Shown here piece after piece: positions 2,142 through 63,120 of a stretch of 64,000 bases of DNA. Numbering within the stretch: the stretch's first letter is position 1; every line of letters starts with the position of its first letter. The stretch lies in NCBI GenBank assembly GCA_963669155.1, contig OZ022576.1, forward strand, positions 37,230,807 to 37,294,806, given 5' to 3'. Source of the DNA: Arbacia lixula. Lineage: Eukaryota; Echinodermata; Echinoidea; Arbacioida; Arbaciidae. A program made the translations under genes and the position numbers. Under the pieces are notes generated by a model, which was given only the letters and a program-made list of their open reading frames with translations, was not told the origin of the DNA and did not search any database.

Positions 2142-2424
2142 TAACCTATACTCACCATTACACTGGGAAAAGAAGCAAGATTCTCCATATTATTGGTTTC
2201 TTGATATGATGATATTTTCATCATATCATGTTATGTTTCTAGATGAATATGGGATTATCGTGAACTATTACGTTAACAATGCCGGGCCAGCGAAAAGTAC
2301 TCTAGTAATAGGGAAAGGTATGCCACAGCGGCATGAGTTAACACTCTCGGTGTCATGGGTGCATGGAATATGTAATAAGTCAATGATACTTTTTCCTGAA
2401 TTGGTACCAGGGGGGTTAACTCAC

Positions 2425-2537
2425 CAACAGTATGTCTTCATCATCCGTCAGCACCTCAGTGGGCACTTCCCCACTGCCAGAGTAGATGGCTCTCTCCTCA
2501 CGGTCCAGCGTATCCGCCTGCAGTCGGTCCGCGGTGT
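2425..2537 (-). CDS. Secreted precursor gene, coding exon 2
   Basis: The exon has acceptor CCCCCTAG before 2537 and donor TTG|GTGAGT at 2425. It is 113 bases: two bases completing a split Asp codon plus 37 full codons. It enters in the phase left by exon 1 (one base over) and leaves in phase 0. The peptide is hydrophilic and acidic, running TADRLQADTLDREERA, then IYSGSGEVPTEVLT, then DDEDILL. This composition is typical of a propeptide spacer between signal peptide and mature hormone. No family was recognised. Confidence 0.6.
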
Positions 2538-2765
2538 CTAGGGGGTCACGGGAAGATAAACAGGTGGAAAGATCGATCGATTGATTGATAGATAGATCGA
2601 TCACTCAACATATTATGCAGATATATGTATGATTAAACAGACAGACGGATAGATAGATTATAAAAGTATGTAGGAAACAAAACATACAAATTACAGATAA
2701 TTAGTATCTCCGGCGTTTCCATTTGTCTGTATTTTGTATCAACTTTGTTTTCGACACTACATCAA

Positions 2766-2920
2766 TGAACAATTTACTGGTACTACCAAATTTCCAAATT
2801 GCTTTAAAAAGTAACACGTTGGATAACGAAGCTTTTCGATGTTCATATCTGCGTGACAATCTGATGAGCTGCAGATCGAAAAGCTTAGTTATCCAACATG
2901 TTACTTTTTAAAGCAATTTG
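2766..2920. mobile_element. Small foldback element with 13-bp flanking direct repeats
   Basis: The arms at 2794-2840 and 2875-2921 are inverted copies of 47 bp with two mismatches, and the loop is 34 bases. The arms begin CCAAATTGCTTTAAAAAG and close with CTTTTCGAT. The unit is bracketed by GACACTACATCAA at 2753-2765 and again at 2921-2933, which looks like a target-site duplication. It lies in the intron of the secreted-precursor gene (2538-3582). Confidence 0.7.
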
Positions 2921-3352
2921 GACACTACATCAACTTGAAATCATCTCATACAGATTATACAGAAGTACATAAATGGAAACGAGGAAAAATAAATGTGCGC
3001 TAAAAATGATAAACTCGTTACTTCATTATATCACTTCCAAAAACTCTTAACAATATGATGTTCAGTCGCATTACAATGTCTGAATGAATATGGTTATTAT
3101 TTGAAAAATTGTTGTTGTTGAAAAAAAAAATGATAAAGAATGCACGTGATAGTACTGTAACAAGACCTAAACGTAAACATTAGCTTAGTGGGCGTCTTAG
3201 AACCGAGAGAAAAGCCAAAATGACTGTGACTGAATGAGTGTGACTGAATGAGAAAGACGGGAGGTGAAGGAGATATAATATATATATATATTATTCTTCA
3301 TATTACGGAGAATAATGGGATATGGGCTGACAGGGAAATTAAGAGATAGGGA

Positions 3353-3353
3353 A

Positions 3354-3397
<44 letters not shown>
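3353..3397. repeat. (GA)n microsatellite
   Basis: An uninterrupted AG/GA run sits in the intron of the minus-strand precursor gene. The Ser/Leu and Arg/Glu open frames over it are artefacts of the repeat. Confidence 0.95.
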
Positions 3398-3400
<3 letters not shown>

Positions 3401-3582
3401 AATCAAACGGCTAGGACGGAGAAAGAAGAGAGAGGCGTTTGAGATAAGTAAAGATGTAGTTGTGGGAGAGGGGGGGGGGGCAGTAAGAGAGAAAAATGAG
3501 AACAAGGAGGATAAAAGGAGGGGGTAACGAAAGACTTCGATGAGACAAATCTCTTCAACTCGCAAAATACACTCACACTCAC

Positions 3583-3703
3583 CAGGCTGTAGAACGATAG
3601 TATTGTCAAGCAAGTCCGCATATTGCAATTGATCAAAAGGCAAACAGGTTGTCGTACAGACCAACCCGACAACGAAGAGGAGAACGAAACTCCGGCTCGC
3701 CAT
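3583..3703 (-). CDS. Secreted precursor gene, coding exon 1 with signal peptide
   Basis: The start codon at 3703-3701 has a good context (A at -3, G at +4). The 40 complete codons begin MASRSFVLLFVVGLVCTTTC, a textbook signal peptide: a short basic N-region, a hydrophobic core and small residues before the likely cleavage. Next comes LPFDQLQYADLLDNTIVLQP, and the exon ends one base into a codon at the donor CCTG|GTGAGT. Joining to 2537 restores an Asp codon and stays open. A TATA box lies about 200 bases upstream. The layout suggests a secreted protein or neuropeptide/hormone precursor, but I do not recognise it. The rest of the protein would lie left of 2425, possibly outside the window. Confidence 0.65.
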
Positions 3704-3880
3704 CGTAGACACTTCGCAGCGATCAGCGTCGAAGTACCGTGGGTGCCCAAAGTAGAGATGGCTTGCAGTACGCACAATGCGAAGTAAAAAGTTGGTATGA
3801 TTGCAGCCCGCTCGCGTCCAACCGTTCGCCTCAATCACTATCCTTCCACTTATTAGTAACCTCACACCTCAATCACTCAT
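3704..3880 (-). other. Inferred 5' UTR of the secreted precursor gene
   Basis: This stretch lies between the predicted start site, about 25-30 bases below the TATA box, and the start codon at 3703. The transcription start is inferred, not seen. Confidence 0.35.
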
Positions 3881-3902
3881 TATGGTCGACAGAATCCACC
3901 AG

Positions 3903-3910
3903 TATTTATA
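3903..3910 (-). promoter_or_regulatory. TATA box of the secreted precursor gene
   Basis: The minus strand reads GGCGCTATAAATACTGG here. TATAAATA is a strong TATA-box match placed about 200 bases upstream of the signal-peptide start codon, giving a plausible 5' UTR of about 175 bases. Confidence 0.5.
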
Positions 3911-5712
3911 GCGCCAATAAAGAGGGGTGTACCATCATTTCAGCATACATTGAACTACGAGGAGACAAAAAACAACACTTTGCCAACTAATTCGAGAGGA
4001 AGTCAATTTCTTGTAACTATTAAAAACACAAAGCGCATGCGGAAGTGGCTCTGTCGGCTACGTGTCGTGACGTCACCATATTGATAACCCACTTCTCTTT
4101 GGTCCCCCATTGGGTGAAATCCTGTCATTGTTTTAATGCATGGATCATAATGATCATTTGATGTGAACTTTCATTTGTAGTGAGTGACGCCGCACCAGAG
4201 TGACAGGCATATTAGAAGGAAGTGAGGAAGGAAGGAAGGAAGGAAAGAATAGAGGAGTATCGATCGTGGACATAGGAAAGGAAATTACTGGCAGATGATA
4301 AGAGTTCAACATTGAAAAAAACCTTGTCGCGTAATAATACCATGAAGTAGATCTGAACAGTATCAAGACTTATTTCGTAATATCATAAAGCAGTCAAATG
4401 TATTCGGGAAAAGTGCTAAATTCTTGGGAGAGAGAGGTTTCAGAACGACAGAGAGGAAGAGAGGAAGATGCATATTTTGGAAGCTGAAACGTTTGTGAAT
4501 GTACTGACAACGGTTGCATAAGTAATGCGTCAAAAGTTTGATGTATATTATGTAACTTGTCTAAAGAACCATATTTCTTATAACATGATAAATTAATAAT
4601 CATTGTACATTAAAATATATAATGTTTCGTATAAATTCTTATCTAATTGATTGACTTCGGATGTCCATCGATAAAGTGATATTCTGCGAGAGCATTCAAT
4701 AAGCTATGATTTTCATCTGAACGTGAGTAGAAATGGGAAACAAAAATATAATTTCAAGATTTGATACGTATTTATCACTAGGATAGTCAAATTCTTTCCT
4801 GTATCCTAACATAGACCGATAGATCTGACTGTCTATACATCTTTCATAGGAATTACAAAAATATGAAACGACACGGTTCTAGCATTTACTGAAAGTTTAA
4901 AGACATGGGAGCCCTTTTTGCAGGTCAAAACAAAAACATTTTGTAAAAAATGGAACGGAAAATGGACGAAGGTGATTTACAACAACTTATAAAACTGGAA
5001 ACTGACTTCGAACATAATTCTGATGATTTCGGAGAACGGGGACCGCAATACGCACTTACCATGCACTTATTGCGGCTTTTCGCATCGCGCAGTAACGCAA
5101 GCGGCGCCCCGCTGATCGCTACAATAAATGTTGCGATACAATGGATACGGTATATGAATGTAGACATGCATGGTCGCTGCGTTTTAAACATAAATAGGGA
5201 TAGTTGTTTCATACATGTTATAGTTAAGGTATACTGCCGATTCCTGCCGGTTTTATGAACATTGCCCGAGCCACGAAAACAACAAAATGTGCAAAAAAAT
5301 TGCAGATTACGTCTCAAAGTTTCCCCCTAAATAAAAAGTAATTCATAGCCCATCGGGTAATTTGGAAAAAGTTGGCTTTGGCTGGGAAAATAAAGAGGAG
5401 AGACTTGGAAAGAATGAACAAGGGGGCTATTTATCTCAGCGTGGAGCTGATACAAAGAGCTCAGGATAGAGAATTGTGGCACTCCATGCCCATGATCGCT
5501 CACGTCACTAGATCATTAGATAGATAGAGCATGCACTCTACCACGAATGGCTAGAGATCATTCAGGTTCTTGCAGCTACTTTGTCGATGTTACGGGATGG
5601 TATGTTCAACGTACCTACGGCGGAGCCCACGACAGAGGGCAGGTAAGGTAAACGTCATTACGACATGGGTGCTAATGATGAGGGCAACCACTTTGGGCAT
5701 TCGACGAAAGCA

Positions 5713-11173: not shown

Positions 11174-11829
11174 ACTCTAACCTTATGTGCTATTTCTTAA
11201 AAGGTAACATTCTCCCATTTTAACAGATGTAATCCTAACTTGTTTCTTTTTAAAGCAATTTCTTTTTCTTCATTCCGATATTCCGTTATCTTTTTAAATA
11301 TTACCTCATGAGATGGAATTACACCCTCCGATCTAGATCGAAAAATAATGTATTTTAAGATAAAAATGACTGTATTGCAACATTTTATATTAAGATCTTT
11401 TCCCTTGATACCTACATGAATATCTATCCACTCTGCATTTTCAAAAACTATCGCTTCCAATCTTTCTATAACTTTTTGCCATAAAGGTTTGATATACACA
11501 CAATCCCAGAATACATGTTGATACGTTTCTACCTTAACGCCACAAAAGGAACACTGATTATTATCAACAAACCCGAACATAAAAAGGTTTTCTTTTGTAT
11601 AGATAGCTCCATGCAGTAATTTATACTGAAATTCCCTGACTTTTGTTAGAAGTGTTGTACTTCGTGGTCTTAGAAAAATATCTGTAATCTCTTTCTTTGA
11701 AAATGTGAAATCATGAAGATTATCTTTAATTCGTAAAGTGTATGATTCTTGTAATTTTGTAACAAATACTTCATACAGCTTTCTGGATGGGAGATCTTTG
11801 AGTAACATTGTATTTTCAAAAATCATCAA
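10731..11829 (-). mobile_element. Degraded LINE retrotransposon, 3' end of the reverse-transcriptase ORF
   Basis: The minus-strand frame 11829-11197 encodes about 210 residues. It contains FQYKLLHGAIYTKENLFMFG and then CSFCGVKVETYQHVFWDC, a Cys/His zinc-binding motif like that after the reverse transcriptase domain of L1/Tx1- and jockey-type LINEs. Upstream, the frame is broken by stops and shifts near 11830-11900. Downstream there is a 3' UTR, an AATAAA at about 10745-10750 and an A run (the T run at about 10731-10739 on the plus strand). It is 5'-truncated and flanked by CA repeats. (CA)n has also expanded inside at 11085-11172. It is a dead fragment. Confidence 0.75.
11085..11172. repeat. 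(CA)n microsatellite in the LINE 3' UTR
   Basis: CA repeat with small interruptions such as ACATACTC. The neighbouring Val/Cys frames are artefacts. Confidence 0.9.
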
Positions 11830-11920
11830 TGAAATACTATATTACTGTACATCAACTGAGTAGAAGTCATATACATTCCCTTTGTATTTCCCACTTGTTA
11901 AAATTGCATTACATATTTCC

Positions 11921-15183: not shown

Positions 15184-15740
15184 TTATATTCCACATACTA
15201 AGAATGTTGCTATATGATTGGTCAAGAGTTGATCACGTGATGAGGCGTAGTTTTTCCTATCAGATCACCTGAGAATAAAAGTTCGTTACACTCTAGGTGA
15301 TAGTACTTTTTGGTTTCACTGATCTCTTCACTCCTTCCAGTCCTAATGCGTGATTAATATTTTGAGTACGCGCGAAATGAAAGTGCGTTACACTCGGACT
15401 ATCAGCTCCCACTAACGCGTCATAATGCGCGTCCTAATTAACGCGCATCCTAACGCGTGTTCCCCATGGCAGCGGCTCGGGGTTAGGTAGAGAAGTAAAC
15501 ATTACTTTTGTACGTCAAATTGTCATTTTTGGTGTAGATAATTGGTTTCAGATGTGGAATATAAATCAAATAATCAACTTTTGGTTTCAGGCAATGAGAT
15601 GAACTATCACTTCCTCGGCGATCTGAATGTATACGCTATCTTTCCTCAGCTGCGCTTCGGAAAGATAGCTACATCCAGATCGCCTCGGAAGTGATAGTTC
15701 ATCCCATCACCTTCACCAACGTTGATTATTTGTTTAATAT
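15184..15740. mobile_element. Composite of two inverted-repeat elements, copy 2
   Basis: This has the same architecture as 1231-2141. Element A runs from TTATATTCCACAT to ATGTGGAATATAA (ending about 15564). It is immediately followed by palindromic element B, ending GATTATTTGTTTAATAT. Element A is about 350 bp shorter than in copy 1. It lacks the doubled AAAGTTCGTTACACT block and most of the GC-rich interior. Confidence 0.75.
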
Positions 15741-20105: not shown

Positions 20106-44603
<24,498 letters not shown>

Positions 44604-45565: not shown

Positions 45566-45663
45566 TATAGTTAAGTTTTGTTTATCTTTTCGTTCTTATA
45601 TATTTGAGCGTGTTAAGGCAAATATTGTTCGATTGAAAAATGTTGCACAATGCTCACCCTCAA

Positions 45664-46134
45664 TAAAGGGATAGTCCACCCTAAAGTTAATTTGGTTTCA
45701 ATAAAAACAGATATATGAAAGAAACATAATTATTGGTGAAGGTATGATGAAAATCCACCGAAAGATAAGGAGTCATGATCTTTTGAAATTTTGATTTTGT
45801 GACGTCATGTGCGAGGTGCTCTCCCATATTTTGTGTGCTGTTTTCGAATGACATTTTTTTCATACAGGTTTATGTGTAAAAACTTATTTTTAATGATGTA
45901 TTAAATGCAAAGGTCAAATTATGCATATCCATTTGAGAAAATTGACATTTTCAAAACAAAATTATACACCACACATGAGAGAGGACCTTGCACGTGACGT
46001 CACAGAATCAAGTTCAAAAGATTATACCTTTCTTATCCTTTGACGGATTTTCATCAAAACTTCACTTAAACGTTTCTTTCATGTTTCTGCTTTTATTGAA
46101 AACATCTGAATTCAAGGGTGGAGTATCCCTTTAA
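45664..46134. mobile_element. Palindromic MITE, copy 2 of 3
   Basis: Starts TAAAGGGATAGTCCACCCT and ends GGGTGGAGTATCCCTTTAA. The halves are inverted copies of each other and share the TGTGACGTCA and TGACGGATTTTCATC blocks with copies 1 and 3. It lies between the converging Pax and PARP3 genes. Confidence 0.85.
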
Positions 46135-48912
46135 TACCTCCCTGTTCAGATGACAACCGTGTAGAGACGCGTCTTATTTACACAAAAAACGCCCTCACTT
46201 CTCAACACCATTGTGGTAATACATGACCAGACTGTACAAGAGCAGACTGCCTCAACACACAAATAGTCATGGTATTCTACCTCTTTTTTTAATCAGTAGG
46301 GTGAATGGTAAATATTACGGTACAATGGTAATGGTAAATATTACAATAGTAAATATTACGTAATGTTACGTAATGTCATAGATTATGGTAAATATGACCT
46401 TCATAAATTATACATTTACATTGTAAGACCTACTCACAAAACACTGTCTATTTCACGCAAAGAAACAAGCACAATTTGCATTCACATCAAGAGCTGCTTT
46501 ACATATTGCATATCCATATTACTTTGATAGTACATGTATCTCTCCAGGCACTGATTACTTTAATGTTTATTAGTCTGATAAATTCAACACTGGAATATGT
46601 TGAATCGCTTGATTGTAATGTATAATGATAACACACCATTCATAAAAAAATATTAAACAATGTGCAATGATGATGCTCTGTTTTGCAGCAATATCTAGGC
46701 AAACATAAAGAAACACAATTTTAAACACTTTCTGCCTGTAATAAAGCATCACAATACATGTATCACTCTGCAATGACCTTTTTTGGCAAAACTTATGACA
46801 AGACCTTTAAAATGATTAACTTTGTTATACATTTATATTGCAATGCATCATGTGAACTTAACACATACATGTACTACTGCTACAAATGTTCAAAAGACGT
46901 GACTCTTTATGACATCAAGATTAAATAGAGGCTAAATGTATACAAACATTATTCAACGATTAAAATGACTAATATCAACATTGATGACAAGTTTACAAGT
47001 TTATCTCATAAAAATACATACTATATATGTCATCAGATAAAAATTTGAAAGGCATGCATTCATCTAAAATATCAATAGCTATGCGATATAAAATATACAC
47101 CTTAAAGGTTATATATAATCTTTAAAGTAATGATACATCATTTTCCACAACACGTGACAAAAATGTATTTCAGTGCAAAATAGTGCAAGTAATATGAAAG
47201 ACAGACAAGTCACCTGACCAAAACAACAAAGGTACTTTCTAGATGAGGACACAGGGCGAGAAAAAACATGGCACAACAGTTTGGCAAGTTCATGCCAAAT
47301 TGAATGCTGCATTGCTGATATTTCTTTCTTTCACGTTTCATGAAATCATTCACCCAAATCGTTCATATCAGCATATCAACACTTTTTTATCAACTCCGTA
47401 CTAGCAGGTATCAGTCGATGATAAAATGTGTTATCTGCTATATGTTTGAGTACATTATTGCTTCTGTTCATCTTCATAAAGCATAAATCCCAGGCCTTTT
47501 TTTGATGTGATATGCAGTATCTTACACCCTTATTGGAGGACATTGTGTAACAAATATATGCCGTATATATCAATTGTTTAAAACAGGCTCATCTGTGTAA
47601 AGAAAACAGGAATATGACACCTAAACGAGTCATATTTATTAGATAATCCCTAAACATGGGTCTTTGGTGCACCAGGAGATACCTGAATAAAGTTCAGGCA
47701 ATAATTTTTACTAAACATTCTTCACATGGATTCTCTCATAAATATATTTTTTTGCTATACTGGTAATAATGAGATAAAATCTGAGGACTATTTGTCTTAA
47801 ATCACGCCACAGCAAGTCGACTTTCTAGGTCAAGTGATTTAAAATATGTACATGTAATCAATGGCAAGAGTGTATAAAAGTCTGATAAAAGGGTCCCTAA
47901 AATTATCAAAGGTTTACAAAATTATGCAACAGGCTCTTGACATTTCTTAGATACTTCCAAGTATGTCGGAGGCAGATATCATTGATAATTATAATTACAA
48001 ACTTCACAATACTTTCAGCCTGGCTGTAAGCACAATTGACAAGTAAAAGACCTCTTAGTTTTCCTTCCTTTTCCCCTTTGATGTGAAAATGTGAAGGATT
48101 CTCCTTAATCACAAGTGATGAATTTGACATAATTCATTCTCTTATGTAGCCATAGAGTTGTAGATTCAGCAGTACCAAATTAAAGGTATATATTGGAAAA
48201 ACAGCACATTTATGGAAATGTCAGCTTCACCACAATTACAGTTTTGTTTTGTTTACAAATTCAGGAAATTCACATGTTTGATTGATTCTATTCAATAGCT
48301 CCACGGCCTTGCTATCCGTTGTCCCATAAGTCTTTGCTGACATCACCAACTGCTACATTAGTCAGAAAAATATTAACGGTCTCAGTACAATACGGCCATG
48401 ATATGTACAGTACTGAATGGGGCTCTCCTGGCTTGGTAATGAGAGAGTTAAAGCAAAGATATGAATGGGTACCTATACTCTGACTGATACATACTGGAAC
48501 ATGTATGTATGGGACTGGCATCATATCACTCACAACTAACAGAACGATGTTCACATCCACCCTGAAATAATCAAATAATATTCTGAAGCACTGTTGCATT
48601 GGTATGCTGCCAGCCTGCCTAAAGGATCATGCTAATTTTGAGCACAAAATTTAAAATGATCCAGCCATTTTTGTATCTTTTGCCGCATTACACAGTCAAC
48701 AAAAAGGAGGGATGAATCCTATATTGTTTTGGTCACAGGTTGAACGTTGAATGCCACCTAAAGACTAATCCATGACCGAACTGGCAGGGTATCTAAGAAG
48801 TGTTAATATTTTCTGTCAATTGTATAAAGAAAGTAAAAGAGAACTCAATTCAGCTTTGAATACACAGCGCAAAATTAAAACTATGGACTGCAAATGTTGA
48901 TATGTGTACAAC
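46135..48912 (-). other. Intergenic AT-rich stretch, possibly including the PARP3 3' UTR
   Basis: No coding exon was seen. On the minus strand AATAAA occurs at 47640-47635 and 46571-46566, and either could end the PARP3 transcript. That would mean a 3' UTR of about 1.3 or 2.35 kb. A short degenerate tandem of GGTAAATATTAC lies at about 46307-46400. Confidence 0.35.
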
Positions 48913-49268: not shown

Positions 49269-52200
49269 ACAAACCCTTTAAACACATTGGCCCATATTCA
49301 CAACGATGGTTTAACTTAGTACGTTTACTTAACCAGGAAGGTTTTTCACCAAGCTGTTCGTAAGTTACGAACGACTTTACGAACGACTGGTGATCACTTC
49401 TTGTGCTAAATACGATACCACACTTCGTTCATTGAGAATCTGGTTTAGCACAAGAAGGGATCACCAGTTATTCATACAGTCGTTCGTAACTTACGAAAAG
49501 CTTGGTGAAACATCCCCCTGGGCTAACTTCATGGAACAAGGTGGTTCACAAACCATTTGTCTCGCCTGCTTTCGCAATGGCCTCATATCATTTGACCTTT
49601 TGACCCCTAGATGACCTTTGACCTTACCGTCCTCATCAACACACATGTGGTATTACCCAAGGCTCATTTGTACCAAGTATGAACACAAGTGATGCAGAAA
49701 TAAAGAAATGAGAGCAAGTTCAACCAAAACTTAAAACATTTTTGTAAGAGACTAACAGAATCACAGGAAAAGTGAAAACTAGGTCTCAGCCAAAGTTCGT
49801 TCAGGCGAGACAAAAAAACAACATGAGACATTATTATTGAAACACTGTTTATTTAATTTTGTCCTCAGAATCACTATGGTATATTAAGTTGATCAAGATA
49901 ATTTATAGCAAAAAACTGAAATCACCCACTGATGTAATTCTGTGATGAAAATCAATGATTTTGTGACAGCATCAAATGACTGCCCCAATAGCAAAGTTAC
50001 ACTTTACATGGATCACAAGTCAAGCTACGATTGATCACAATTCTTGAGAAGACAGACCCCTGTTTTTGATTGTAGACGTACTGACCTGGTTCCTGTTGTC
50101 CTTTGGCAATGACACAGTCCGCCTTCCCGGGGGCAGCGGTCAGCTGGGACTGATTGCACATTACATGGTGCTCTACCCCCAGTGCCGCCTCGTTTAGGAA
50201 CATCACCGCACGGCCATCACTGCATGATCCAACTGCAGAATAATCATAAATCATAACGACATCTATGACACATGATATGTACATCATTAAAGACAGAATG
50301 TCCCTTTTTCAAAAGTCGTGAAACTCAGCAGGAATCAGCAGTACACCCCAACAATGTGTTTAAAATCTCATAGTGAAAAACTATCCTTGTTTACATTTGA
50401 ACCACAGCAGGCATAGTCTAAATTCATGATAGCATTGTCCCGTTCAGCGCACGATGAGGGCATCACTCCCATTGACAGCATGCGCCTTGGAGCTGACAGA
50501 TGCTGACCATAGCGCACATCTCTAGGCTTCAGGTTTCAGATGACCCGCCAAAAATGTCCTCAAAGTCTACCGATTGCTATTATTCCGCTTAAAAGTCAGT
50601 TTCCAGTTCGATTATTGGGAGGGAAGTTCTTATACAGTATCTCCTTTTATTTTCTGTGGTTTTTATTACATTTTATTTGTTTTTTTGACTGGCAAAAAGG
50701 GTACCCTGTGGTTGACCTATTTCTCTATGATCTGTACATTATGATAGATACAATGAACAAGCATAATTTATAAAAAATGAATATACAGGGAAACCCTGTT
50801 ATAACGAGGGGGACAGGATCCACACTTTTTCCTCAATATAGCCGATTGCTCGCTTTACCAGTACATGATCAAAACATACAGAAACAAATGCATCTATAGG
50901 ACTACACAAACAATAACATATTTACCGCTAGGACTGTAATATTCATATGGCTTTGCAAGCATTCTAAACTGAATTTATTATCTAAAAATTCACTAAAAAT
51001 GTAAATAAATGACACTGAGTTCTTACCGTATCCCCGTGACTTGGCATTCTCGGAAGCAAGGTAGATTCCTCTCCCCACACGCCCTCCGGAGTGTGGCATA
51101 ATGCGAAGACCAGTCTTCAAGATGGCCGCCACAACAGCAACATTGGTGCCATGCCACAGCAGACGACGGTTGGTAATGTTCTTATGGGCAGCAAATCTAG
51201 CATCCTGTCATTCGAACAGGGAGCACAAATAAAGGGGTGCATGGACAAAGCAAAAATGAGTACGATAAAAATTGTAGGAAAAGCCTAGTGACATCATGTG
51301 ATACATGTATAACAGTATTGCTTCTTGCCTAAAACCCAATTGAATAAATAATGACTTTGAATAAACAATAACAAAAATCAGATTTCATTTGAAATTTCAA
51401 AACTTTTTAACATGGCATTGTTGATTATGCTACTCTGCATAGTAAAAGAAAATTTGACCTTTGTGCCATCTTTTTTTCATGGATTATAGATAAATATCTC
51501 AAATAGGCATCTAATTTGCATACAATTGTAAACAAATTTAAGGGCTTTTTATGCAGCCACGCTCTTTACATGTGCCTTGCAAAATTTCAACCTTCCGTGG
51601 CCCAGATATTTCAACCACACTCCCCCCCCTTCCCCCCAGTCAAAACTTGCTCTCAAAAATCCCTGTCAGAATAGGGTTACCGTACTGACCGGCGTATAAG
51701 CCGTGGGTGTTTTTTCTTGAAAATCTTGGCAAAGTCGGGGTGCGGCTTGTACTAGGCGTTAGCAAAAAGTCGCGTCTTTCAAACCAACACGTGTACACAT
51801 GTATGGGATAATGCATTGTGTGACAACAGTCAACAACAAAATAGATGGCTTTAATAGCCATCCCAGTGTGACACAATTTACGTACCGGTAGTAAGATCTC
51901 AATCACATCAACAGCATAATTACCTGTACTAAGAAAGTACCATGATTAGTAGTTGTCCAAGACAACTCAGAGATACCGATAATGAGAAAGCTAAGGCTCA
52001 AACTAGCAAACTCCATTAGATGCAGAGTTTTTTTTTATCTCTGGCGGCCACGAGATGGTGGTAAACACTTACATCTTACGGTCGTGTATCTACCGCCACC
52101 TTGTGGTGCCATACTGCCATCATGTGTATACATTGGTTTGAAAGACCCAATCAAAAAAAAAAAAATTGAAATTGCGTCAGGGGTGTGGCTTCTGTGCGGG

Positions 52201-55200
52201 TGCCGCTATTACAATGGTCAGTACGGTAAGGTGCCAGTGAAGCACTATTGCACCAGCAACACACACACACCACACATACATGTAGAGCACCACATTCTCT
52301 GGCATGCAAAGGGATTTTAAGATAAGATGCCACATGCTCACCTCTCCCTCTCTGTCCATCTTCCAGATCTCAAGCAGTTGCTTCCCATCATTACCACAGC
52401 TGGTATTGTCGATGTAGGTCTTCAGATACTGCAGAGGGAAGACAGAGGTAGATGCTTGTAGTTGGGAGTATCGAAAGAACAGTGTATCAAGACATCATAC
52501 AAATTTCCGTAACTGTGACAAATAACACCTATAAATAATCCAACTGGTTCCAAACAATGCCACGATCCACTGGTAAAAAGCATCATACTTTTGAGAGCCA
52601 CATCAAGTGTATGTCAAATTTATAAACCTTATACGAACTGCATATTATCAGTATTAAAGAAAAAAAGGTACATATATGCATATATATATATACTCAATGT
52701 AAATCATTGATATAACTCCAGACTAAGAATTTTATAAATCTCAATCTGTAAAGGATTTCAAATTTAAGTTGGAGTTGGACTTCCTTGGTAATTTCTGAGC
52801 AGCAATGACCCAATTTGATTGGCCTATAAATATCCAGATGGCTTGCTGGCTTGAACAGTTACCAAGAGGCATCTCTTGGCACCTGGAATTGATAATACTT
52901 TATCCCATTGCACACTTAAAGATTTTCAGACTTTGTGAACCCTGGCCCAATGAGGATCTCAAAATTTGCTATGGAACTGCAATAACCTCAGGGGCGTGGA
53001 TTAACTGCACCCTATAAGGAATTTACAGCTTATTCATAACCTGTCGTGTATTGATTACGCTGATTATGCGGGAGTCACGCTGCTCAGCATCTGAATGGAG
53101 TAGAGCCATCCCCAAATACCTGGGCTCAGTAAAGAATGGGTTCACCCTTTAAAGATGGCCCGTCCCTTTTAAAAACATATGCAAGCTTTATGAAAGTTTG
53201 TACACACTTAGCATGTATCTTTTTGAATACCAACTGTGAAATTCTACGATCAGAAGTACTATAACTCCCGTAGCATAAATGAAAATCTAACTAGTTTTCA
53301 ATGAGATTTGACTATTTTCGTGGTACAAAAAAACAAAGCTCGATCAATCATCGAAGATTGTTTCCTCAAAACCGGATATTACGCTTTGTCGATTCCAGGG
53401 AAAGGTTAAATAGCCACTCTCTCTCAAATGATGACAAAGTCAGGGAACTTTCAGAAATAGGTCTGCAAAAGGGACAGGCTACCTTTAACCTCCACTGACG
53501 CATTTTTGCACAAGTAATAAACATAAATCCTATAGTGCAGCATTTTGTTTAGAACTTGAAGGGTTAAATACCTTGAACTCCTGACATGCGCTATCCAGCC
53601 GCTCCAGCTTGCACTTGAGCAGTCCGTACTTGACGTCCAGGGGATTAGGAACAGCATCGCCAGCCGCCAGCTGTTGCCATGACAACAATCATCCATCAGG
53701 GGAAAAAAAATAAGAATTCAACAAATCAACCACTAAATCAAAGTACTGGTACTCAAATAACTCTGAAGCAAAATAAGTGTATTCAGATAAATTGATGAAT
53801 GCATACCCAAATAATTCAGGATCTATGAGTAAATGCAAAGCAACTGGGAACAATCAATTAGATAACAACTTTCCTGTTGAATTCATACATGCTGGTCTTT
53901 CTTTTGCTTTACATGCAAATTTGCCCAGAGAAGATCAAAGATCAAAATCAAAATCAAAATCAGTGATGTAATTTTCATTCAACCTGTTCATACACGTTTG
54001 TACACTTTTCCAGAGCCAGGAATGAAATCATTTGTACATGACGCTGAGGAAAACATTCTAACAAACATCCAGTTACAATGTTTCTTACCGCTTTCTCTGT
54101 CTTGCTCTTCTCCTTCTGCATGGTTTGGGCAATCTCAATGTCTCCAAGAACCTGGAGGAAAGAAGCCAAGGTTAGGAAGAGAATCACAAGGGTGATTACT
54201 GTGTGAAAGACCACAACATACACAAACAGAATAACTATGATAATATTTATGCTGTGTAATATTATATTTCATGAAGGATGTTGTGAATGTCAACATGTAG
54301 AACAAAATTTCATTCAATAGCTTTTTTCCTATAATATATGAGCTATGCACTCGAAATCTGAAGAATACTACGATTTCCACTTCTACAGTTTTTTTCCAAT
54401 GTAATTCAGACCTAATGAACAAACATTATATTGCATATTATTACATATTTTTGACAGACTATAATAATGCCATTTACAACACTCAGGTATATTGTATTTC
54501 CTGTGCTGGGTAACAGGTTACTTTTGTTTCTTAAACAGTTTTCATGTGATATATGTCTTTCAATGCATAAACTAACTTCAAACCTCAAATAACCTATTCA
54601 GATTTCTTTTGGTTCATCATTCAATATCAGTGACCATAGATCAGTACTGTCTGAAACGGACTGTGTAGTAGTTTGGACCTAGGATCAAATATGTCCTTAC
54701 CAAAAGCATGTCCTTCTTTTCCTGGATCTTCTCTGGGTTATCAATGACTGGAGGGATTTTCCTCCCAAACGAGTGGGGAATTATAGTGTAGAACTTGGAG
54801 GAAAGATCTGCAAGTATGGGTTTTTTCTTTTTGGCCTGCACTGCTTGCTCAATTTCATCCAGAGCTTCGAATCCTTTAGCGATCTGAGCTTTGCTCAAGT
54901 TTCCCAGTGGCATCTTCTTCACATCTAGATGCATATAATAGAAAAAGAAAAAATACAAGATTTGATTTGCAGGCATGATACATGACGACAGATCCAGTAT
55001 CGTACTTCTCATGCAGCTTTCCAACCACCAATCAGAACGATAGAACAATAGCAGCCAATCACAAATCAGAGCTTTCTAAACATTGATCAGAACGATAGGC
55101 TAGTAGCGGCCTATCGCAATTCAGCTATTGGAACACGCCACACTCTGTGTTTCATCTAATAATCTCCAGCCATCTTCAATGCGGCCTTTGTCTCTCTCTC

Positions 55201-58200
55201 TCTCTCTCTCTCTCTCACTCATTCAATCCCTTTACTTTCTTTTTCACTTTAAACAGTGAGGATCTCTTTCCTCTATCTACTTTCTCCCTTAAATAACCCA
55301 TAAATTGCGTTTAATCTAATTGCCATTGGCAACTCAGTCTTATTCATCAGTCAATCTGTGTCTCCACCCCCCACCCCCCTATTTCTTTCTGCCAAGTAAG
55401 GATGTCCATCCCGTTCTCCCTGCTCCTTCTCACGCTTGACCTCACCCACCCCCTAGCCTCACTTTAAGGCTCTCTGACCGATTTAATCAAGATTACCACA
55501 GGTACATATCAGTCTCGTATGGGCTGGACTAATTCTTTACTCCCAGATGTCATGCATAAGAACCAGAATGCAATCGTCCAAACCGCGTACAAGGAAAAGT
55601 TGTCCCACAATTCACTGCACAGCACACGTTCGCAGTCATACCCAATTCCATCCTTATACACTAATATAGACTAGACTGGAATTGTGTATGACTGCGGACA
55701 TGCGCTGCAGGGTGCATTCTGGGATGTCTTTTCCAAGCATGCGGTAATGGAGTGTTAACTAGTGCGCTTCAGCCCAATATGTTGATTATATCGAATTTGA
55801 ATTATATCAAACAGCCTGGAGCCAAACTTCCACTGTCCCAGTTTCATTTCTCCATCTTTACCAATCTCAAACTTGGTCATCTGTTCTTTGAACATGTCCT
55901 CGTTGAAGATCAGCTTGACCAGCTCCTGGGTAGCACTGTCCAGAGTCGAGGGGAGAACCGTCTTGGCGCCTGATGCTGTATCCAGCTCATTCAGCTGGGG
56001 GAGATGAATAAAGGGCACACATGTACTTTTACCCTTTCGCATCAACATCTTAAGACAAGCACTCGCCGCCTACAACAAATATTTGTGGCTACCAGGCCGT
56101 TGTACCTGTGTATCGTGCAAGGGTATATCATTGATAAACAACAGGGGAATATTGATCATAACTGCTTGCTCGTGAGCATTGCCCATTGTGTGTCCACTCC
56201 AGATTTTGCATTGTTACTGCAATGTGCCACAGCACACGCAGTGCGTACTTTCCTTCAGATTCCTCAGACATATATACAATGTTTGGAAAAAAAAAACTTC
56301 TCAAACAATAATTCCCCAATGAAGTTGCACAAATATGTATACACAAGTATTACTTGTGAATAATTTTGCATTTGGCAAATTGAGAGTTACACATCGTCGC
56401 CTACCTTGTCGGTCTTTTCTTTCAGCTCTTCCACCCCCGCCTCTGCTACCTCAATCAGGGTGTACTTGCCAGCCACAGGCTTGAAGTTGGCCCGCTCCTC
56501 CCACTTATTCTTGGTCTTGTCTGTGAATTTCTTACAGAAGAACTTCTTGGCTCCTTCCAGATCATTGCCAAACGTGCTGGTGGAGTTCTGGCCGGACTCT
56601 CCCTGACAAGGTGCAAAAGAAATGTGAATATGGGTGAAGACGAGGTGTTCCATTTGCAAAAGTTGTGAAACTCTGCAGGAATCGGCAGTATTCCCTAACA
56701 ACAATGTCTGAGTAATCTCACAGTCATAGCCTCACAACCTCATCAAGAAAAACGAAAACTGTTGATGTTTACATTTAAAACCTAGCGGCTGTAGTCTACA
56801 TTCACAATCGTATTGCCCGTCAGTGAGCTAGCGCCACACACCGCAGGCATGCTCCGATTGAACGCATCCGCTGTGGTGCGGACCATAGCGCACAACGGTC
56901 TCTGCTCTCTAGCCTATACATGTAGGTTTTGGATGACCAGCCCAAAACCTCCTCAAACCTAGCGATCGCTATAATTTTACTTAAAATCAGTTTCTAGTTC
57001 TATTAATGGGAGGGAAGCTCTGACACAGTATCTTCTTCCATTTTCTGTGTTTTTTACATTTTTTTTTTGTTGCCCTGCAAAAGGGACATTCTGTCTTTGA
57101 AGCTAAGTGAGTCAACCCTGAATGGAAAGAATCCTCATGGGAGACAAGAAATGGAGTCAGTATTTAAGCAGGTGGTCTTTCTGTATAAATTATTTGAATT
57201 CAGGTTTCAATGAAAATGTTCTCAAAGGAAATGTGGTCTTCATAGCCAGGGGGTGGTGATTAGAGAAGTGTTCACTGTATTGTGCTATTGCCCAAACAAT
57301 CCATAAATCTTTGGAAAAATCCATGTAATCAAAGGCTTCAAAGTGGCATGCATTTTCTCCCCACTGGGTCCATTTAAAGCATGTCTGATAAGCAGATATT
57401 AAAGGCTTTCACGCGTCGATTCTGCGGGGAGACGTCACTATTTAGCTGCTACGCGTACTTGTGAACTCAATGCACGTATGCGAAATGGCTAGCCACGATC
57501 AGGGCTGAAGGTTTAGCTTCAGTAAGGATGGTGCGTTCTAACCAGGCGGGTAAATGCGTAAGTGCCCAAAAAACAATACACATAGGTAAGTGTGCGTTTT
57601 GCACGGAACGCACAGCGTATGCAATATGGCAGCGCGCTAGGGATATATCCTGTGTACGACGCGTGATCGAATGCCTTTAAAGTTCATTGTGATATCAGGG
57701 GCACTCACACACAAAAGTAAGTGGAATCCTGACCGAGGTCAAAATCTCACTAATCCTTACATGCATTCACACAAAAGTTAGAAAATCTGTGGGAAAGTGT
57801 GGAAAGGCAGTAACACTTCATTTGATAAATCTATACACTTTTTTTTATATATTTAAGGATTACAGACATTAGACCAAAACATCTGCATTTGTGGTTTATC
57901 TACAGGAAATGTATATTCTGATTTTAAAAATATATCAAATGATGCAAGCAGTTAGCCTTGATAGCATTGTGATAACAAGGAAAATCTCCATTTCATGACA
58001 TCAGTCTTGAAAATTAACCCCAGCAGAATTATTCACCCCCCCCCCCCCCCCCCACACCCATCCAGTAGAACTTACTACTCTGCCCCATCTGGTCCAAACA
58101 TAGTACTCCGGACCAAACTGTCGCAGCAGCTGGATGACGTAGAACTTGTTATTGTTAAAGCCAATGTTCGTCTGGTTTAACATGCAGTCATAGTCGTCTT

Positions 58201-62300: not shown

Positions 62301-62780
62301 TTAAAAGGTACAGTTTACCCTGGAAATTATTTTTGTTTCAGTAAACACAAACACATGAAAGAAAAACAATAAGAAAGGTTTGATGATAGTCCGTCAAAGG
62401 ATAATGAAGTTATGATATTTCTCTCCTATAATTATGTTGTGTACAATTTTTTTCGAAAATGTGGAAAAGCCGTTTTCACACACATACCTGTATCCTCGTT
62501 TAGTTCCAAACGGAATGTTGAGGAGTATTCCAAAGAAGAGGAAGAAGAAGAAGAAAAAAAAAATCCGTTGTCCAAAACAGGAAAAGAGCAATTTACTGTA
62601 CGCATCTTAAGGGAGAGGCAGAGAGCAACTCGCAGGTGACTTCACAGAATTGAAAATTAAAAAGATCAAAACTTCCTTATTCTTTGACGGATTTCCGTCA
62701 AACCTTCACTGATATGTTTTTTTCTCATATGTCTGCTTTTATTGAAACAAAAATAATTTCAGGGTGAACCATCCCTTTAA
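62301..62780. mobile_element. Palindromic MITE, copy 3 of 3
   Basis: Starts TTAAAAGGTACAGTTTACCC and ends AGGGTGAACCATCCCTTTAA. The inner ends are GGAAATTATTTTTGTTTCA and TGAAACAAAAATAATTTC (inverted copies). An internal GAA-rich stretch has expanded at about 62535-62562. Confidence 0.85.
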
Positions 62781-63120
62781 TAATCACAGTCAAAGAAAGA
62801 AAAAAATATGGGGTGGGGTGTATTTGTGGCGCTTATGAGTGTGTGTCTGTTTGTGTGTTTGTATGTATTACGTGTGTAGATGTGTAATCTGACAATGTAG
62901 CATGCTAAGCTGTGGCGAAAAATATGTAATCGAGCTCACTCGCAGCGTTTAGCTTCAATCCAGAACAATATTAATATTTATTTGAATATTTTCTGAATAT
63001 TTCGTTGGACGTATCATACTCTGTTGTATGTGAATATTGTACATGTACATACCGCCGTACCTCAGAATAGAGGATGTTTATTCATACACCCCTCCCCCTC
63101 CCCCCTCCCCCCCTCCCCCC

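Follow-up and report, generated by a model that had tools for sequence, protein, structure and literature searches.

A probable 5′ gene end for a secretory-pathway protein on the minus strand of an Arbacia lixula contig

Results

A probable gene start and two coding exons in register on the minus strand

The minus strand of positions 2425 to 3910 of the window (the whole 64,000-nucleotide stretch of DNA that was analysed) very probably holds a real 5′ gene end with the first two coding exons of a gene for a secretory-pathway protein. This grading is our judgement and was not computed. With better than even confidence, we read the sequence as part of an ordinary gene that would continue to the left of the window and whose product is secreted or spans the membrane once. 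As seen here, one more secretory-pathway gene is represented by its 5′ end, and how much it is worth rests on exons that were not found in the window. The features are given below, with a slash marking exon borders here and in the text.

3905..3910, minus strand: TATA box, TATAAAT on the minus-strand reading
3583..3703, minus strand: coding part of exon 1, MASRSFVLLFVVGLVCTTTCLPFDQLQYADLLDNTIVLQP and the first base of Asp-41
2538..3582, minus strand: intron 1, 1045 nt, phase 1, GTGAGT...CTAG, 36% G+C
2793..2922, no strand assigned: inverted-repeat element within intron 1, 53-nt arms, 92% complementary
2425..2537, minus strand: exon 2, 113 nt, 59% G+C, the rest of Asp-41 and then TADRLQADTLDREERAIYSGSGEVPTEVLTDDEDILL, ending in phase 0
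2467..2481, minus strand: Ser-Gly-Ser-Gly-Glu (residues 60-64) in acidic context, possible glycosaminoglycan attachment site
2419..2424, minus strand: GTGAGT donor of intron 2, phase 0, exon end TTG/GTGAGT at 2424

The TATAAA at 3910-3905 lies 207 nt upstream of the ATG at 3703, which has an A at -3 and a G at +4 and so a strong start context. The frame of exon 1 opens with MASRSFVLLFVVGLVCTTTC, which has good signal-peptide shape, continues with LPFDQLQYADLLDNTIVLQP and then reaches the first donor, G/GTGAGT at 3582. Residues 1-20 are signal-peptide-like, with a mean Kyte-Doolittle value of 3.4 for the best hydrophobic 9-mer. Judged by hydropathy and the small-residue rule, the product has an N-terminal signal peptide of the kind found in precursors, with its cleavage site assumed. 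The intron 1 acceptor, CCCCCTAG/AC, is at 2537. The first-pass annotation had named a TATA box, a strong start codon, a signal-peptide-like start, a GTGAGT donor, a CTAG acceptor and a second GTGAGT donor, and all of them were located. Its in-frame join through a split Asp codon was confirmed as well, with Asp-41 divided G/AC across intron 1. The spliced length of 77 residues has to be corrected, since the joined frame of exons 1 and 2 gives 78.

When the donor at 2424 is left unspliced, the frame runs on for two codons to a TAA (LLVS, then stop) and gives 80 residues. We consider a two-exon gene with this ending less likely than splicing; the nearest AATAAA or ATTAAA downstream, at 1930, lies some 490 nt past exon 2. 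Part of each arm of the inverted repeat in intron 1 also matches 11229-11261. A second signal-peptide-like first exon (MSTFIYRIHCIATFIVAISGAPLALLRDAKSRNKCM; 5060-5167, minus strand) lies upstream of this gene start and has a GTAAGT donor. It has no Pfam match, and because it ends in phase 0 it does not fit the acceptor at 2537.

No convincing third exon in the remaining 2424 nucleotides

Candidates for a third exon were collected in two ways. The first list took YAG at 2364 and below, with at least 55% pyrimidines ahead and followed by a phase-0 frame of at least 15 letters or by a donor (8 shown); the second took AG at 2360 and below with an acceptor score of at least 0 (15 shown), weaker acceptors being left out. 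None of these listed candidates makes a convincing third exon within 1-2424. The longest frame of the first list, 54 residues at 363, lies in the repeat at 197-676 and is not among the acceptors scoring at least 0. The longest of the second list, 47 residues at 1667, was also rejected. It lies within 1231-2142, which together with 15184-15740 forms two copies of a transposon-like element, and it is probably repeat-borne because the end pieces of the two copies share 78% and 92% of their sequence; about 310 nt in the middle are found in the copy at 1231 alone. The strongest listed acceptor (2162, minus strand) ranks 12th of 7426 on both strands, and 7 nt further on the donor at 2155 ranks 18th of 7304. 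This pair was considered as a possible microexon downstream of exon 2 and set aside; the window has one further pair of this kind (37246). The open frame at 843-1124 (93 residues) has no Pfam match.

Both 1-2424 and intron 1 contain several repeats, and repeat sequence makes up the whole or the ends of 197-676 and 1231-2142. Since no convincing third exon was found in this partly repeat-filled stretch, the part that defines the protein probably lies beyond the left edge of the window.

The visible part of the predicted product is acidic and lacks dibasic sites

The 58 residues past residue 20 include 15 acidic and 3 basic ones, are free of cysteine and have a computed pI of 4.05. No dibasic site is present within the 78 residues, and no evident hormone-like peptide was seen in the 58 residues after residue 20. 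Single arginines occur at 45, 53 and 56, where monobasic cleavage may in principle take place. Searches for relatives gave little. The 78-residue product had no Pfam match up to E 10, an empty result that says little about a propeptide, and PDB sequences gave one weak match only (CheA, E 0.64). In viral contigs 44 stretches fitted a pattern, with no relative among them, and nothing in the whole window reached the gathering score in Rfam. The exact peptide strings occurred in no paper of the library searched, which says little since sequences shown in figures are missed by a text search, and the matches listed for PMC6209648 on larval neuropeptides (12 of 20) contained no precursor sequence.

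Most signal-peptide genes are not neuropeptide genes, which we state as a prior and not as a result. A neuropeptide or peptide-hormone precursor is a possible but minority reading, and we hold it to be unlikely. Its exon 1 would carry the signal peptide, exon 2 an acidic propeptide serving as spacer, and one or two following exons the peptides with dibasic sites, from which prohormone convertases would release the peptide. The gene start, the signal-peptide-like N-terminus and the two coding exons agree with the secreted-precursor reading of the first-pass annotation, but its word 'prohormone' goes too far for 78 residues without a dibasic site or an evident peptide and for a window without a convincing third exon. 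The second exon is cysteine-free and, as had been described, acidic. An acidic stretch after the signal peptide is no mark of novelty, because acidic spacers are described in the echinoderm precursors Arnp11, Arnp15a and Arnp15b (available part of PMC4772807).

Upstream of the TATA box, the cAMP-response-like palindrome TGACGTCA (4068) at first looked promising as evidence for a neuropeptide promoter. We dropped it, since this 8-mer occurs six times in the window and its surrounding 21 nt have 86% likeness to a section of the repeat at 197-676. That repeat shares matching inverted-repeat sequence with 45661-46135 and 62621-62781, and the first two of the three hold TGACGTCA.

How strongly the structure stands out

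Elsewhere in the window, two exons of a Pax gene were found on the plus strand (~34820-35040 and 37072-37251; Pfam PAX, borders from splice scores). The first Pax exon has Pax5 as its best PDB sequence match, and in its wording the paired-box gene presumably resembles Pox-neuro. Pieces of a poly(ADP-ribose) polymerase gene lie on the minus strand at 50905-56731 (WGR, PARP_reg and PARP catalytic domain matches), as does a retrotransposon reverse transcriptase fragment at 11200-11841 (zf-RVT).

Splice sites were scored with matrices entered by hand. The two donors of the structure rank 4th and 23rd among 3761 minus-strand GTs, and the acceptor at 2537 is moderate (144th among 3889 minus-strand AGs). 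We then scanned both strands for a signal-peptide-like exon, a donor, an in-frame acceptor, an exon of at least 90 nt and a second donor, with thresholds placed just below the structure's own scores after these had been seen. At these tight thresholds the real 64-kb window contained this one full structure and no other on either strand. Null windows with at least one structure numbered 0 of 60 for a Markov model of order 3 and 10 of 300 for order 4. When the thresholds were loosened, at least one structure appeared in 113 of 300 null runs of order 4, and the real window gave five structures with four distinct first-exon donors; in two of the five the first exon is doubtful and is joined to exons of the paired-box or PARP domains. 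Signal-peptide-like frames were found 53 times in the real window versus a null mean of 27.3. Because of this excess, and because the thresholds were chosen post hoc, the null test flatters the finding.

Codon scores were trained on 350 domain codons from the window's own paired-box and PARP genes. The score of exon 2 is the best of its six frames, and 2.5% of the 3201 stop-free 37-codon frames that were sampled score as high. That of exon 1 is unremarkable, with 58% of frames as high and its own frame the lowest of six. A G+C content as high as that of exon 2 is found in 3.0% of the window's 113-nt stretches. An antisense frame of 162 uninterrupted codons spans exon 2 (2053-2541); its sole Pfam match, DUF247 (E 0.081), is weak and below the cut-off. 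TATAAA occurs 92 times in the window on both strands, or about 0.29 times expected per 400-nt single-strand stretch, and the TATA box is therefore weak evidence.

These numbers bear on whether there is a gene at all. A signal-peptide-like frame and splice-like sites could have come together by chance in a repeat-rich stretch, as the positive null windows of order 4, the surplus of signal-peptide-like frames, the repeats in 1-2424 and intron 1 and the lack of a codon signal in exon 1 would allow. Yet the null model takes no account of the exon 2 codon score, the G+C step, the strong start context or the TATA box, and we consider a chance origin improbable.

A Ser-Gly-Ser-Gly-Glu stretch in exon 2, a possible attachment site

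The N-terminus of the product may resemble that of syndecans, in which a signal peptide is followed by an acidic Ser-Gly region. Syndecans have a transmembrane segment and a conserved cytoplasmic tail, which would be encoded by later exons; neither is seen here. The N-terminus of a syndecan-like proteoglycan core would consist of the signal peptide and a short acidic Ser-Gly exon with a glycosaminoglycan chain, and a spacer and a transmembrane segment would follow in later exons. According to the available part of PMC8418075, attachment of such chains tends to occur at Ser-Gly near an acidic cluster. SGSGE, which is flanked by acidic residues on both sides, agrees with this general rule. However, the stringent E/D-G/A-S-G motif reported there for C. 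elegans is absent from this stretch, in which Tyr precedes the first Ser-Gly and Ser stands two before the second Ser. The same paper cautions against predicting proteoglycans from motifs alone, and a single short acidic Ser-Gly stretch is weak evidence for one. We regard a syndecan-like core as quite improbable. As prohormones can carry glycosaminoglycan chains too, according to that part of the paper, this reading need not exclude a neuropeptide precursor.

That the gene encodes a precursor of a peptide family undescribed in any animal, with the peptide exons just past the left edge, is in our view highly improbable.

Discussion

We favour the reading in which the gene is an ordinary one and its product either secreted or a single-pass membrane protein. 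The minus-strand segment would then belong to a real protein-coding gene and form its promoter-proximal end, with a signal peptide in exon 1 that would route the protein into the endoplasmic reticulum. Exon 2 would add an acidic, cysteine-free and probably unstructured stretch, most likely an ordinary propeptide or N-terminal spacer, and the working part of the protein would be encoded by exons outside the window. The elements, the frame across the join and the composition can be read directly from the sequence; transcription, splicing, secretion, the lack of structure, the role of the acidic stretch and the further exons are inferred. In favour of an ordinary gene we counted the elements in register, the sole occurrence of the structure in 64 kb at the tight thresholds and its rarity in the null runs, the exon 2 codon score, the step from 59% to 36% G+C, the start context, the TATA box, the acidity and the lack of a dibasic site and of a Pfam match. 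The exon 1 codon score, the moderate acceptor, the antisense frame and the post hoc null test were counted against it.

The intron phases of the gene, 1 and then 0, can be compared with those of known precursor families, as far as the available parts of the cited papers give them. Somatostatin-type genes have a phase 0 intron in their N-terminal part (PMC7536072). The echinoderm SS1 and SS2 would resemble the product in an N-terminal propeptide ahead of a C-terminal peptide, but their N-terminal intron is in phase 0, whereas the first coding intron here is in phase 1. The same difference separates the product from SALMFamide genes, in which a phase 0 intron lies between the signal-peptide exon and the peptide exon (PMC9400282, PMC9793003). 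Phases 1 and 0 argue against the somatostatin and SALMFamide types, while the calcitonin type and unknown families remain compatible.

Three families with a phase 1 intron disagree on other grounds. The kisspeptin-type KPP1 shares this intron and has its peptides in coding exon 2, but exon 2 here contains neither a dibasic site nor an evident peptide. In bombesin-type genes the phases, 1 and then 0, agree with those of the gene described here, and the first intron interrupts the peptide sequence (PMC12002301), but no peptide with an amidation Gly and a dibasic site is found at the junction. In PrRP-like genes the phase 1 intron lies inside the peptide adjoining the signal peptide, and the C-terminal coding region is uninterrupted (PMC7314547); here a second intron is present and a peptide with a cleavage site is lacking. 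The orphan echinoderm precursors Arnp11 and Arnp15a,b, whose names derive from the sea urchin Spnp11 and Spnp15, are alike in the acidic spacer after the signal peptide. They differ in their dibasic sites at 45/46, 54/55 and 63/64, followed by a six-cysteine polypeptide (available part of PMC4772807); here no dibasic site is seen through residue 78.

If the gene did encode a hormone precursor, it would be of interest because precursors from echinoderms are useful for placing neuropeptide families on the way from protostomes to vertebrates. Among known families the calcitonin-type layout would be the most plausible. The type is marked by a peptide that has two N-terminal cysteines and ends in Pro-amide, which would lie in exon 3; no calcitonin peptide, dibasic site or convincing third exon is seen here. 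The layout alone is non-specific, and the comparison, drawn from the available parts of the papers, covers the order of exons, the signal-peptide length and the cleavage sites. In the sea cucumber, exons 3 and 4 of a calcitonin-type gene with four coding exons each encode one of its two peptides (PMC12638048, PMC6586643), and the starfish PpCTP, whose signal peptide is 21 residues long, has the first of its listed cleavage sites at 68/69 (PMC6002491). The likeness to AjCTP1 consists of two exons ahead of the first peptide exon, and both AjCTP1 and PpCTP have a signal peptide of 20-odd residues, with the first listed cleavage of PpCTP coming late. A signal peptide of about 20 residues and no dibasic site through residue 78 fit the layout of AjCTP1 and PpCTP roughly.
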